Shown here in pieces: positions 26,013-61,272 of a stretch of DNA of 64,000 bases. The DNA lies in contig NW_006767435.1 of the NCBI RefSeq assembly GCF_000264995.1, positions 1,884,531-1,948,530 on the forward strand, given 5' to 3'. This stretch comes from Punctularia strigosozonata HHB-11173 SS5 (Eukaryota > Basidiomycota > Agaricomycetes > Corticiales > Punctulariaceae). Each line of letters begins with the position of its first letter. Position 1 is the stretch's first letter. Both the position numbers and the translations under genes were made by a program. The notes below the pieces were generated by a model that was given only the letters and a program-made list of their open reading frames with translations, made no database searches and was not told the DNA's origin.

Positions 26013-26203
26013 AGACAAGGGAGGATATTTCCTTAGCAACTTGTTTCATCGGTCCAATTCCCGTAGCCTGCATGTTGAAGCTGATATCCGATGCAAGAGA
26101 ATGTATTATGATGCTATTGCTACATGATGGGTTCCGATATTAGTGACTGGGTATGCGGTGAATGGGTGATGTCGTCAACAAGACCAGAGCGGGTGTTGCC
26201 AGC

Positions 26204-26729
26204 TCATGCAATCGTAATCTTCTTCGGCGCGGCCTCAGGCGCCGACTTGGGGAATGTCACCGTCAACACCCCGTTCTCCATCGACGCCTTGATCTCCCCG
26301 TCCTTGATGCCCTGCGGCAGCTGCAACGAACGCGAGAACTTTCCGAACCGCCGCTCCCGTACAGCGTACCCGTTCTCGTCATGCTCGCTTGAGACCTTGC
26401 TTTCGCCCGAGATCGTCAGCCGATTGTTGTGCACGTCGATGCTGACATCTTCCTTCTTCAGGCCGGGCAGCTCGAACGTCGCGGTGACGGTGTTGGAGTC
26501 TTTGTTTTCGTGCAAGTCCATCCTGAGAAGCCACTGTCAGCATCGTGGTCTAGAAACTTGCCGAAGCGAGCATTACATACCTTGGCCGGAGTGGACCTGA
26601 TGCGGCGCCTGGCGAACGCTGGACTTGGCCACCGTTGTTACTCGTCCGCGCGTTGAACGCCTCCTCGAAGAGACGATCAAAGTCGGAGGGAGTGAAGACG
26701 GGCTCGTACCAGAAAGTGGAAAGCGACAT
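26204..26729 (-). CDS. Small heat-shock protein Hsp20, copy 1
   Basis: Two exons (26581-26729, 26204-26522) and a 58-nt intron. The N-terminus MSLSTFWYEPVFTPSDFDRL is followed by the alpha-crystallin domain (MDLHENKDSNTVTATFELPG, LKKEDVSIDVHNNRL, AVRERRFGKFSRSLQLPQGI, ASMENGVLTVTFPK) and ends APKKITIA. The product is an ATP-independent holdase chaperone of the cytosol, about 155 aa. The coding region and about 240 bp of promoter are almost identical to copy 2 in inverse orientation. The promoter carries a heat-shock element and TATA box and is split by a transposon 239 bp upstream of the ATG. Confidence 0.93.
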
Positions 26730-26831
26730 GGTGATGAGGATAAGTGGTTAGTGAGGTAGAATCGAGTGCGCTGAGTAGATGATTGTTTGTTGTTTGTGTT
26801 TTCTGCTGAGCGGGACAGGCTACCACTGGCC

Positions 26832-26879
26832 CCTTATATGCGTCCAGAGCATCTCTTCCACGACGTTGAGCGAAATTTC
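26832..26879 (-). promoter_or_regulatory. TATA box and heat-shock element of Hsp20 copy 1
   Basis: On the minus strand CATATAAGG lies around 26832-26840, about 105 bp before the ATG. The inverted GAA/TTC pair GAAATTTC at 26872-26879 is a heat-shock-factor core. A further TTCGA-rich stretch lies at about 26930-26960. Confidence 0.6.
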
Positions 26880-26967
26880 TCGAGCCACACGGAAGTATCT
26901 TGGTGACGTCGGAAGAGGAGCAAAGCAATGTCTCGAACGGGATCGAAATCTCGAGACGCTTCGTTTA

Positions 26968-26993
26968 CAGTGATCCACCGTTCCTCTGGACAG
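26968..26993 (+). repeat. Left terminal inverted repeat
   Basis: 26 bp starting CAGTGATCC, next to TA at 26966-26967. It pairs with 28327-28352 with two mismatches. Confidence 0.85.
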
Positions 26994-27403
26994 CACCACT
27001 CCCTTGGACACGGGCTAATTTCTCCACATCGCCTGACTCTTTCCTCTTGATTATTTATATATATATACATCCAATGGATCCTCACCATCTCTTGTAGCCC
27101 GATGGACAATATGTAGTGTTTTACTCGAATGAAAAATCGGAAACACCATGGTGGCTGTGCTATTCAATCTTTATGTGGGCTTTGAGGTGTTTGTGAGCTA
27201 CTGTACCACAAATCAGTGTACATATTCAGACTCTACAGTGCTGAAAGCACTATCTGCAACTGAGCTCATGAGGGTACATGTATTAATGGGCCCAATATCG
27301 CTCCAGGTTTCTGCATGCTTCGGCGGAGCAGCAGCTAAGGCAGCCATGTGACTGTCGATTAACCTCCGAAAACGGTTTCCCGCGCTCACACCGGCAACTA
27401 CGG
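26983..27403 (+). repeat. Direct repeat, left copy, bordering the sequence gap
   Basis: About 420 bp, repeated from 27695 to about 28113 (offset 712). The two copies are identical except for a few one-base indels in the last ~40 bases next to the gap. Confidence 0.85.
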
Positions 27404-27694
27404 NNNNNNNNNNNNNNNNNNNNNNNNNNNNNNNNNNNNNNNNNNNNNNNNNNNNNNNNNNNNNNNNNNNNNNNNNNNNNNNNNNNNNNNNNNNNNNNNN
27501 NNNNNNNNNNNNNNNNNNNNNNNNNNNNNNNNNNNNNNNNNNNNNNNNNNNNNNNNNNNNNNNNNNNNNNNNNNNNNNNNNNNNNNNNNNNNNNNNNNNN
27601 NNNNNNNNNNNNNNNNNNNNNNNNNNNNNNNNNNNNNNNNNNNNNNNNNNNNNNNNNNNNNNNNNNNNNNNNNNNNNNNNNNNNNNNNNNNNNN
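27404..27694. other. Assembly gap (291 N)
   Basis: A run of undetermined bases inside the MITE-like element. The sequence before the gap reappears directly after it. Confidence 0.99.
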
Positions 27695-28113
27695 CCTCTG
27701 GACAGCACCACTCCCTTGGACACGGGCTAATTTCTCCACATCGCCTGACTCTTTCCTCTTGATTATTTATATATATATACATCCAATGGATCCTCACCAT
27801 CTCTTGTAGCCCGATGGACAATATGTAGTGTTTTACTCGAATGAAAAATCGGAAACACCATGGTGGCTGTGCTATTCAATCTTTATGTGGGCTTTGAGGT
27901 GTTTGTGAGCTACTGTACCACAAATCAGTGTACATATTCAGACTCTACAGTGCTGAAAGCACTATCTGCAACTGAGCTCATGAGGGTACATGTATTAATG
28001 GGCCCAATATCGCTCCAGGTTTCTGCATGCTTCGGCGGAGCAGCAGCTAAGGCAGCCATGTGACTGTCGATTAACCTCCGAAAAGGTTTCCCGCGCTCAC
28101 ACCGGCAATACGG
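27695..28113 (+). repeat. Direct repeat, right copy, bordering the sequence gap
   Basis: Repeats 26983-27403. It starts immediately at the last N, which is typical of two contig ends that overlap but were not merged. Confidence 0.85.
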
Positions 28114-28140
28114 CAAAGTCACAAACGGCGTGGGAAAACC

Positions 28141-28158
28141 GCTGTCCAGAGGAACGGT
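28141..28158 (-). repeat. Internal copy of the element's terminal repeat
   Basis: The complement of this 18-bp stretch is identical to 26977-26994 inside the left terminal repeat. It may be an older end, or the end of a second element nested within the first. Confidence 0.7.
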
Positions 28159-28326
28159 AAAGTGGCTGTGAGGGGGTCACCCGTATTATGGCTCTCAGAT
28201 TTTTTTTAGGATACCTACTACTCCAAAAATATTTGGGTAGATGGGCAGGATGTACAGCTAACTAATAATGCTAATTTAAAGAAGAACGAGAGCTCATGGG
28301 AGGAGCAACGCGCAGTACAATTTTTC

Positions 28327-28352
28327 CTGTCCAAGGGAACGGTGGATCACTG
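28327..28352 (-). repeat. Right terminal inverted repeat
   Basis: Its complement starts CAGTGATCC and is followed on the plus strand by TA at 28353-28354. Confidence 0.85.
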
Positions 28353-28569
28353 TACCACGTGTGACGTACGTCAACTTGGCGCGGCGTTGAGCGCGAAACC
28401 AAACACTGGTCAACAGAGCCGCTACTGCTACTTAGCAATGCTAAGTATGGTCGCGCACGCAACGTGTCCGAGAAGGTCCATGAATAAGGTGAAGCTGTAC
28501 TATACATCCAGCCGGTAGTCTGAAAACCCATCTCGAACTCAGCGACATCGAAGCATAAGTACGCATCCA

Positions 28570-48140: not shown

Positions 48141-48547
48141 CGGTTTGTGCTCCAGTAGGATTATCATTCTCGTGTAGGTTTAGGCTATGGATCGCTGTAA
48201 TGTTGCTCGTGTACATCATCGCTATACCCTCGAGGGATTGCTTTCATTGCAAAGCCGTATTTACGGCTATTTGCAAAATCCCCGTTTTGGCACTCGACAC
48301 CGCACGTGGGAAAAGAAGCGTCTCGAGATTTCGATCCCGTTCGAGACATTGCTTTGCTCCTCTTCCGACGTCACCAAGATACTTCCGTGTGGCTCGAGAA
48401 ATTTCGCTCAACGTCGTGGAAGTGATGCTCTGGACGCATATAAGGGGCCAGTGGTACCCTATCCCGCTCAGCAGAAAACACAAACAACAAACAATCATCT
48501 ACTCAGCGCACTCGATTCTACCTCACTAACCACTTATCCTCATCACC
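48141..48547 (+). promoter_or_regulatory. Promoter of Hsp20 copy 2 with heat-shock elements and TATA box
   Basis: From about 48303 to the ATG the sequence is nearly identical to the complement of the copy 1 promoter. It holds GAAGCG and TTTCGA-type motifs (48316-48350), the core element GAAATTTC (48398-48405) and TATAAG (48439-48444). CACGTGGGAAAAGAAGCG at 48303-48320 is the uninterrupted counterpart of the transposon insertion site in copy 1. Left of about 48300 the similarity fades. Confidence 0.65.
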
Positions 48548-49073
48548 ATGTCGCTTTCCACTTTCTGGTACGAGCCCGTCTTCACTCCCTCCGACTTTGA
48601 TCGTCTCTTCGAGGAGGCGTTCAACGCGCGGACGAGTAACAACGGTGGCCAAGTCCAGCGTTCGCCAGGCGCCGCATCAGGTCCACTCCGGCCAAGGTAT
48701 GTAATGCTCGCTTCGGCAAGTTTCTAGACAACGATGCTGACAGTGGCTTCTCAGGATGGACTTGCACGAAAACAAAGACTCCAACACCGTCACCGCGACG
48801 TTCGAGCTGCCCGGCCTGAAGAAGGAAGATGTCAGCATCGACGTGCACAACAATCGGCTGACGATCTCGGGCGAAAGCAAGGTCTCAAGCGAGCACGACG
48901 AGAACGGGTACGCTGTACGGGAGCGGCGGTTCGGAAAGTTCTCGCGTTCGTTGCAGCTGCCGCAGGGCATCAAGGACGAGGAGATCAAGGCGTCGATGGA
49001 GAATGGGGTGTTGACGGTGACATTCCCCAAGTCGGCACCTGAGGCCGCGCCGAAGAAGATTACGATTGCCTGA
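48548..49073 (+). CDS. Small heat-shock protein Hsp20, copy 2
   Basis: Exons 48548-48696 and 48755-49073 with a 58-nt intron, 155 aa. The protein differs from copy 1 at only about one position in exon 2 (KDEEIKAS against KDGEIKAS) and carries the full alpha-crystallin domain (TFELPGLKKEDVSIDVHNNR, ENGVLTVTFPK). It is in inverse orientation to copy 1 and convergent with the ADH pseudogene, mirroring the left arm. The intron and part of the 3' flank are also conserved, so the duplication is recent or the pair is kept alike by gene conversion. Confidence 0.93.
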
Positions 49074-49314
49074 GCTGCCAACGCTGGCTCTGGTTTCAGC
49101 TCCTTGTCCTGGCCGCATTCACCCCACCCATTCATTGCATACCCGCTCATCAATCATGGAACGCATGTAGCAATATTGTAGTAATATATACATTTGCACA
49201 GAATCTAGCCTGAAGATAGCGCCAGAGCAATGTGCGCGATGAACAGATTGTGTTCTGGTTCTGAATACACGTACAAGCTGGTTTGGAAGCTGCTCAAGAA
49301 CTTAATTATAGCCT

Positions 49315-60433: not shown

Positions 60434-60962
60434 TTATGCAATGCTGATCTTCTTCGGCGCGGCTTCAGGCGAGGACTTGGGGAACGTGACCGTCAGGACA
60501 CCGTTCTCCATCGACGCTTTGATGTCGCCGTCCTTGATACCTTGCGGGAGCTGTAGCGAGCGCGAGAACTTGCCGAACCGCCGCTCGCGCACCGCGTACC
60601 CGTTCTCGTCGTGTTCGCTCGAGATCTTGCTCTCGCCCGAGACGGTCAGCCGGTTGTTGTGCACGTCGATGCTCACGTCCTCCTTCTTAAGGCCCGGAAG
60701 CTCGAACGTTGCGGTGATGGTGTTGGAGTCTTTGTTTTCGTGCAGGTCCATCCTATGAAGCGGCGGTCAGCACCGTTATCGAGAGATCAGCGGAGGCGAC
60801 GGTTGCATACCTTGGGCGAAGGGGACCAGATGTGCCGCGCGAGCGCTGGAGATCGCCACCGGTGTTGCCGTTGCCCGTTCGCGCGTTGAAAGCCTCATCG
60901 AAGAGACGGTCGAAGTCAGAGGGGGTGAAGACGGGCTCGTACCAGAAGCGGGAGAGCGACAT
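60434..60962 (-). CDS. Small heat-shock protein Hsp20, copy 4
   Basis: Exons 60811-60962 and 60434-60752 with a 58-nt intron at the shared position, 156 aa. N-terminus MSLSRFWYEPVFTPSDFDRL; alpha-crystallin domain DSNTITATFELPGLKKEDVS, NNRLTVSGESKISSEHDENG, RRFGKFSRSLQLPQGIKDGD, ENGVLTVTFPKSSPEAAPKK; ends ISIA. It is close to copies 1 and 2 but clearly distinct, so it lies outside their recent homogenisation. Its upstream region keeps the ancestral promoter order that is split by the transposon in copy 1. Confidence 0.93.
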
Positions 60963-61272
60963 GATGATGAGGAGTCGATTCGGATGCGGCGAGGTGCTTG
61001 TTTGTTTGTTGTGTTTTGTTCTTGAGCTGAGTCGTCGTGGGCAGGGCCTTTATATACAGTTGACACTGTACGTTCCGTGAAGTTTCGAGATAGTAATGAG
61101 AGGTCATGGGACCCTACGCTGACGCAAGGATGCGTGCAAAGTGCCGTTTCTGGAGACTGAAAGTGGTCTGGACGGGAGGCTGGAAGGCGGTCGAAATTTC
61201 GAGTGGCTTCGGTTCCCACGCTGTCTATCATAGCGCGGCGTTGAGTACCAAATTGGGACGAAACCAAACAAG
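60963..61272 (-). promoter_or_regulatory. Promoter of Hsp20 copy 4 with heat-shock elements
   Basis: TATATAAAGG (minus strand, about 61047-61056), a three-part element GAAGTTTCGAGA (61079-61090) and a second core GAAATTTC (61193-61200). The stretch GGCTTCGGTTCCCACG (61205-61220) and GCGCGGCGTTGAG (61233-61245) match the two flanks of the transposon in copy 1. Confidence 0.65.

Follow-up and report, generated by a model that had tools for sequence, protein, structure and literature searches.

Probable splitting of an Hsp20 promoter by a MITE-like, pogo-related element in the wood-rotting basidiomycete Punctularia strigosozonata

The promoter of one Hsp20 gene (copy 1) of Punctularia strigosozonata HHB-11173 SS5 was very probably split by a nonautonomous, pogo-related MITE of about 675 bp that inserted at a TA, which is the best explanation of the evidence taken as a whole. 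Sequence comparison shows the insertion, the existence of an element family, and the presence of conserved blocks on both sides of the element. The window (the whole 64-kb stretch of DNA analyzed; Table 1) belongs to a genome of 33.6 Mb. A genome-wide profile search with PF00011 gave seven matches, six of them on contig C3 and the seventh on C2. Within the window, the C3 matches were copies 1, 2, 3 (in two pieces), and 4; a fifth copy lies 6 kb outside it.

Under the proposed history, a MITE-like element derived from, or cross-mobilized by, a pogo-like DDE_1 transposon would have entered the copy 1 promoter at a TA lying 237 bp before the ATG, interrupting a promoter module that copies 2 and 4 retain intact. 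The distal motifs and the E-box would have been pushed to ~0.92 to 0.96 kb from the ATG, leaving the TATA box next to the gene together with the best predicted heat-shock elements (HSEs), and gene conversion would have homogenized copies 1 and 2 as far as the insertion.

TABLE 1 Positions of the features discussed (window positions unless a contig is given)
Feature	Position	Strand	Details
Window	C3:1884531-1948530		P. strigosozonata HHB-11173 SS5
Hsp20 copy 1	26204..26729	-	Exon 1, 26729-26581; intron, 26580-26523; exon 2, 26522-26204; 155 aa
Hsp20 copy 2	48548..49073	+	~21 kb from copy 1, inverted relative to it
Hsp20 copy 4	60434..60962	-	
763-bp tract, 98.8% identical, copy 1 side	26200..26962	-	9 mismatches
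763-bp tract, copy 2 side	48315..49077	+	
Copy 1 proximal promoter, beside the gene	26730..26965	-	TATA-like TATAAG (reverse complement from 26833) and HSE-like sites
MITE-like nonautonomous transposon as assembled, both flanking TAs included	26966..28354	.	Paired terminal inverted repeats (TIRs); 7 other full-length genomic copies
TA, left half of target-site duplication	26966..26967	.	Gapless alignment with copy 2 across the join when one TA is kept
Left 26-bp TIR	26968..26993	+	
First copy of the 421-bp sequence present on both gap sides	26983..27403	+	Read as unmerged contig overlap
Assembly gap of 291 N inside the element	27404..27694	.	
Second copy of the gap-flanking overlap	27695..28113	+	
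Internal third copy of the TIR core	28141..28158	-	18 nt, 100% complementary to 26977-26994
Right 26-bp TIR	28327..28352	-	24/26 versus the left TIR
TA, right half of target-site duplication	28353..28354	.	
Displaced distal promoter	28355..28405	-	E-box CACGTG, 28356-28361; TGACGTACGTCA, 28362-28373; CTCAACGCCGCGC, 28379-28391; TGTTTGGTTTCG, 28394-28405
Unoccupied paralogous position, copy 2	48303..48320	+	16/18 versus the joined copy 1 flanks; GA at copy 1's TA
Unoccupied paralogous position, copy 4	61205..61220	-	
Copy 4 distal motifs matching the displaced copy 1 block	61233..61270	-	

Element structure, genomic family, and length

The sequence-only reading had proposed an element bounded by inverted repeats identical at 24 of 26 positions with TA on both sides, and recomputation of the arms bore this out: 26966-26993 and 28327-28354 are 93% complementary over 28 nt with the TA included and 24/26 without it. 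A genome search with the right-hand 660 bp of the element produced at least 13 matches, 2 of which came from the window's own element, interrupted by the gap; the other 11 comprised seven full-length copies, a pair of pieces on C9, a piece on C1 next to a gap, and a partial match (69%), all counts being lower bounds. The seven full-length copies elsewhere are 672 to 682 bp long and 91 to 99% identical, and every one of them (7/7) carries exact paired TACAGTGATCCACC ends, 672 to 682 bp apart, and TA at both ends. An element unique in the genome, the outcome that the sequence-only reading had named as counting against it, was rejected, given these seven copies. Because all full-length copies have exact paired ends, the element is considered a true mobile family, MITE-like and nonautonomous.

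The TIR end pattern, with at most one mismatch allowed, had 28 matches in the genome versus 6 for a reversed control. Apart from eight MITE-sized pairs (the window's included), none of the 28 bracketed a longer element, unpaired matches being examined to 1.5 kb on each side, and no coding element with near-identical paired TIRs was seen among them. A transposase gene of the element's own is absent by length, with ~675 bp being too short for the 273- and 554-amino-acid (aa) frames of its relative on C23, and stop-to-stop frames overlapping the element at the seven full-length loci reached at most 176 aa among the four longest frames listed per locus. One MITE copy on C9 is split at a single internal point into L012:1484-1614 and L008:1501-2049 (C9:1278395-1278525 and C9:1286278-1286826); the two pieces face opposite ways with 7.8 kb between them, and both abut CACCGCCATTTTGG. 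This arrangement would fit the insertion of a further element followed by an inversion. The copy at C1:3586500-3591537 (L087, L011) breaks off at a stretch of >5 kb of N.

The first 98 bp of the element matched one terminus of an element of 3,347 bp at C23:2812-6158 (72% identity, E = 7e-11), with an alignment score of 61 versus a maximum of 32 in 300 shuffles, and the 3' ends of the two elements showed a weak likeness (35 bp, 71%, E = 4.9). The C23 element has imperfect TIRs (26/30), is flanked by TA, and contains the two overlapping open frames mentioned above, with matches to DDE_1 (2.5e-17) and HTH_Tnp_Tc5 (2.3e-6). A relationship of the MITE to pogo-like (DDE_1) transposons is the parsimonious reading, and its mobilization by a C23-type transposase seems plausible. 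A survey for DDE_3 gave 20 matches, and the TIR test of the best 10 loci returned one single end, with 5 mismatches of 19, in L060.

Pogo/Fot1-like transposons (Tc1/mariner superfamily) and their nonautonomous MITE derivatives resemble the element in its TA target site, and the ends of the local DDE_1 and HTH_Tnp_Tc5 element (TACAGTG...) are common to the MITE. In contrast to pogo/Fot1-like transposons, the MITE has ~675 bp without a transposase gene and an extra internal copy of the TIR core, and its likeness to the coding relative is confined to the ends. Two further DDE_1 loci were observed. At L052:14-3139 (C11), a 493-aa open frame lies between perfect 27-bp TA-flanked inverted repeats that also start with CAGTG, and L049 (C3:1976001-1976513), which lies ~27 kb past the window's right end, has a 606-aa open frame.

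The assembled length of 1,389 bp includes the assembly gap, which is best read as two overlapping contigs left unmerged, with the length inflated as a result. The element would then measure about 677 bp with both TAs, for a net insertion of about 675 bp. It is very unlikely that the assembled structure is genuine and represents a tandem dimer, two elements sharing one TA. The 291 N come near the ~254 bp (an estimate) that a dimer would need, and gap sizes vary in this assembly, so the 291 may be a paired-read estimate; however, the two 421-bp halves have in common a substitution (column 381) that is absent from every other copy, and their differences are confined to the vicinity of the left contig's end. 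Moreover, at 4/4 other gaps (L056, L057, L069, and L070), which were those with sequence on both sides at loci chosen for transposases or a motif and so a nonrandom set, the start of the right flank is repeated in the left flank (326 bp at 100%, 199 bp at 99.5%, 220 bp at 100%, and 107 columns at 98%, with L069 and L070 sitting in locally repetitive sequence). The match reaches the gap edge in three of the four and stops 143 bp short in L056. From the shared substitution and these control overlaps, an element length of 1.39 kb was rejected. With the window's gap included, duplicated flanks were present at 5/5 gaps examined, and gap-spanning repeats in this assembly need care.

Copy 1 promoter and the insertion site in its paralogues

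When the element was taken out so as to leave a single TA, the joined flanks of copy 1 aligned without gaps to copy 2 (CACGTGG-T/G-AAA-C/A-GAAGCG), and their alignment to copy 4 needed gaps. Copies 2 and 4 both read GA at the position of copy 1's TA. Since neither paralogue has the TA, either copy 1 gained it before the insertion or copies 2 and 4 lost it. The site in copy 1 before insertion would have been contiguous CGTGG-TA-AACGAAGC, and an unoccupied copy 1 allele would have a single TA within contiguous CGTGGTAAACGAAGC. Copies 2 and 4 are better described as diverged paralogues with unoccupied paralogous positions than as strict empty alleles. The sequence-only reading, in which a transposon split the promoter and two paralogues kept the empty site, stands as to the split and the unoccupied positions, and its flank words and coordinates for copies 2 and 4 were correct, but its notion of an empty site has to yield to the GA and the divergence of both paralogues.

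Flank matches were compared with shuffles, which here and in the HSE, C23-terminus, and tract-flank tests preserve base composition only, and with random pieces of the window. The joined flank scored 54 against copy 4 (as high in 0/1000 shuffles and 0/1831 random pieces) and 60 against copy 2 (0/1000 and 0/1844), the latter score coming mostly from shared proximal promoter. The 90-bp distal flank scored 31 against the region upstream of copy 4 (0/1000 mononucleotide shuffles, 2/1821 random window pieces), with common blocks of 12/12 and 13/13 bp, and did not match copy 2 when used alone (score of 19, as high in 148/1000 shuffles and 311/1847 random pieces). The earlier claim that the flanks match the paralogues beyond chance was upheld for the joined flank and for the distal flank in copy 4 but fails for the distal flank alone in copy 2. 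Retention of copy 1's further motifs in the copy 2 distal region was rejected on that score of 19; copy 2 shares with copy 1 only the CACGTGG-nAAAnGAAGCG block, without the further distal motifs. A matching site in copies 3 and 5 was also rejected (joined scores of 17 and 17, with 614 and 633 of 1,000 shuffles as high).

An exact search of the 33.6-Mb genome for the module CGTGGKAAMMGAAGC gave two matches, which lie upstream of copy 2 and copy 4; since the pattern had been derived from these two copies and copy 1, the matches show its rarity elsewhere rather than an independent match to copy 1. With one mismatch allowed, it fell to background (14 matches in all versus 45 for a reversed control). 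Both CTCAACGCCGCGC (13 bp) and TGTTTGGTTTCG (12 bp) are also exact in copy 4, and the spacing of the distal motifs to the ATG, recomputed with the same result as had been claimed, amounts to 263 bp for copy 1 once the assembled element is taken out, compared with 271 bp for copy 4. Genome-wide, CTCAACGCCGCGC occurs in six places, four of them away from these Hsp20 genes, versus three for a reversed control. The TGACGTACGTCA motif is a perfect 12-bp palindrome directly adjoining the E-box in the displaced distal flank and is presumably CRE-like.

In copies 1 and 2, HSE-like sites were predicted ~150 bp (GAAnnTTC) and ~219 bp (gapped TTC-n7-TTC) before the ATG, with a predicted TATA-like box between them and the gene. 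The 239-bp proximal promoter contained two HSE forms versus 0.12 expected. In the 660 bp of the element scanned, no short or three-unit HSE forms were found (0.62 expected), the only occurrence being one gapped GAA-n7-GAA. A weaker HSE-like site, of three units with one mismatch, occurred once in the displaced distal 346 bp (0.23 expected), ~216 to 130 bp past the join depending on the end counted from. The E-box, TGACGTACGTCA, and the two blocks shared with copy 4 moved from ~240 to 290 bp to ~0.92 to 0.96 kb upstream of the ATG. The best predicted HSEs and the TATA box stayed proximal; not every HSE-like site did. The claim that distal sequence was pushed more than 0.6 kb away while proximal HSEs stayed in place agrees with the shift of ~675 bp and the proximal position of the best HSEs but needs amending for the weaker, displaced site. 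Because the proximal HSEs are intact, heat induction of copy 1 would be largely kept; inputs acting through the displaced block, with its putative regulatory motifs, may be weakened.

Copies 1 and 2 form a natural near-isogenic promoter pair, with 230/233 bp of proximal promoter identical and either the MITE at -237 or native distal DNA beyond it, and their diverged 3' ends would let RNA reads separate the two genes. With this pair, the importance of distal promoter DNA for fungal Hsp20 induction can be examined without engineered constructs. The natural promoter test suggested earlier is stronger than had been thought for copy 1 versus copy 2 (3/233 bp differ) and weaker for copy 4, whose promoter could be matched to copy 1 by BLAST only within ~10 bp of the ATG.

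Identity tract of copies 1 and 2 and gene conversion

The 763-bp tract covers the proximal promoter, exons, and intron, with three mismatches in 233 bp of promoter, one in the 58-bp intron, and five in exon 2. It ends 4 bp away from the insertion TA on the 5' side and just past the stop codon on the 3' side. Over ~200 bp beyond the stop codon, copies 1 and 2 are 58.7% identical versus a shuffle maximum of 54.6%, and homology is evident in 74/100 columns around 26016-25917 and in 77% over 64 bp at 25791-25728. Beyond the insertion, their identity of 54.0% is indistinguishable from no homology (shuffle mean of 51.1% and maximum of 55.7%; 200 shuffles).

The tract looks like recent gene conversion within an old inverted duplication. 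A high-identity block with sharp edges inside an older, diverged duplication was found when the 3' side was compared, the 5' side being without older homology. A recent duplication of the gene and proximal promoter alone, without conversion, would also make copies 1 and 2 identical, and it would fit the lack of significant homology between their 5' flanks past the insertion (score of 19; 54.0%), but it is unlikely, as the 3' flanks are still homologous though diverged. Therefore, the older inverted duplication would have come first, and the 763-bp block would have been homogenized later. The usual length of conversion tracts is 50 to several hundred bp (PMC3924818), and for this reason 763 bp is long for one event, and several events are possible.

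The element may have acted as a barrier to conversion: only 4 bp separate the 5' edge of the tract from the TA, and this edge falls within an 18-bp block common to copies 1 and 2. Substitution clocks allow the element's presence at the time of conversion: the element has 5/660 substitutions (0.76%; four private and the fifth, at column 381, also in the window's own left half) and the noncoding tract has 4 per 2x291 (0.69% per lineage), with widely overlapping confidence intervals. In L010, 141 private indel columns were an alignment artifact of a contig-end tail and were excluded. Nevertheless, the edge probably fell near the insertion by chance, detectable homology of copies 1 and 2 ending just past CACGTG anyway. 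No distal homology to copy 2 was detectable, and the 3' edge of the tract is likewise at a drop in homology, after the stop codon, where no element is present. Chance is the more likely reading because detectable homology to copy 2 gives out within ~12 bp in any case and because the tract formed its 3' edge without any element. It is rather doubtful that the element fixes one edge of concerted evolution, with the shared proximal half homogenized repeatedly and the distal control region of copy 1 kept private. If true, the insertion would act as a heterology and a transposon would partition a promoter into shared and individual halves. The locus offers an opportunity to ask if gene conversion between paralogues is limited by insertions.

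Concerted evolution of Drosophila Hsp70 was reportedly described by Bettencourt and Feder in 2002. The type of event seen here is already known; this case is new as far as the literature search reached, which found no report of the element or of transposons in P. strigosozonata Hsp20 promoters, as judged mainly by titles and the openings of abstracts. The near-identity of copies 1 and 2 ending 4 bp from the insertion is new here. Transposon insertions are known from Drosophila heat-shock promoters (PMC2793543), whereas the present case concerns a fungal Hsp20 gene, a pogo-like family, and one genome, and was studied from sequence alone. For the hsp70 cluster of Stratiomys singularior, PMC3071340 describes paralogues homogenized by conversion, diverging 3' regions, and incomplete Mariner copies nearby. 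The Hsp20 paralogues resemble that account of hsp70 clusters in being homogenized with diverged 3' regions and differ from such clusters in forming a homogenized inverted pair that has a transposon insertion 4 bp from its 5' edge. The 763-bp inverted pair, ~21 kb apart, could also promote inversion of the intervening DNA or mislead the assembly of short reads.
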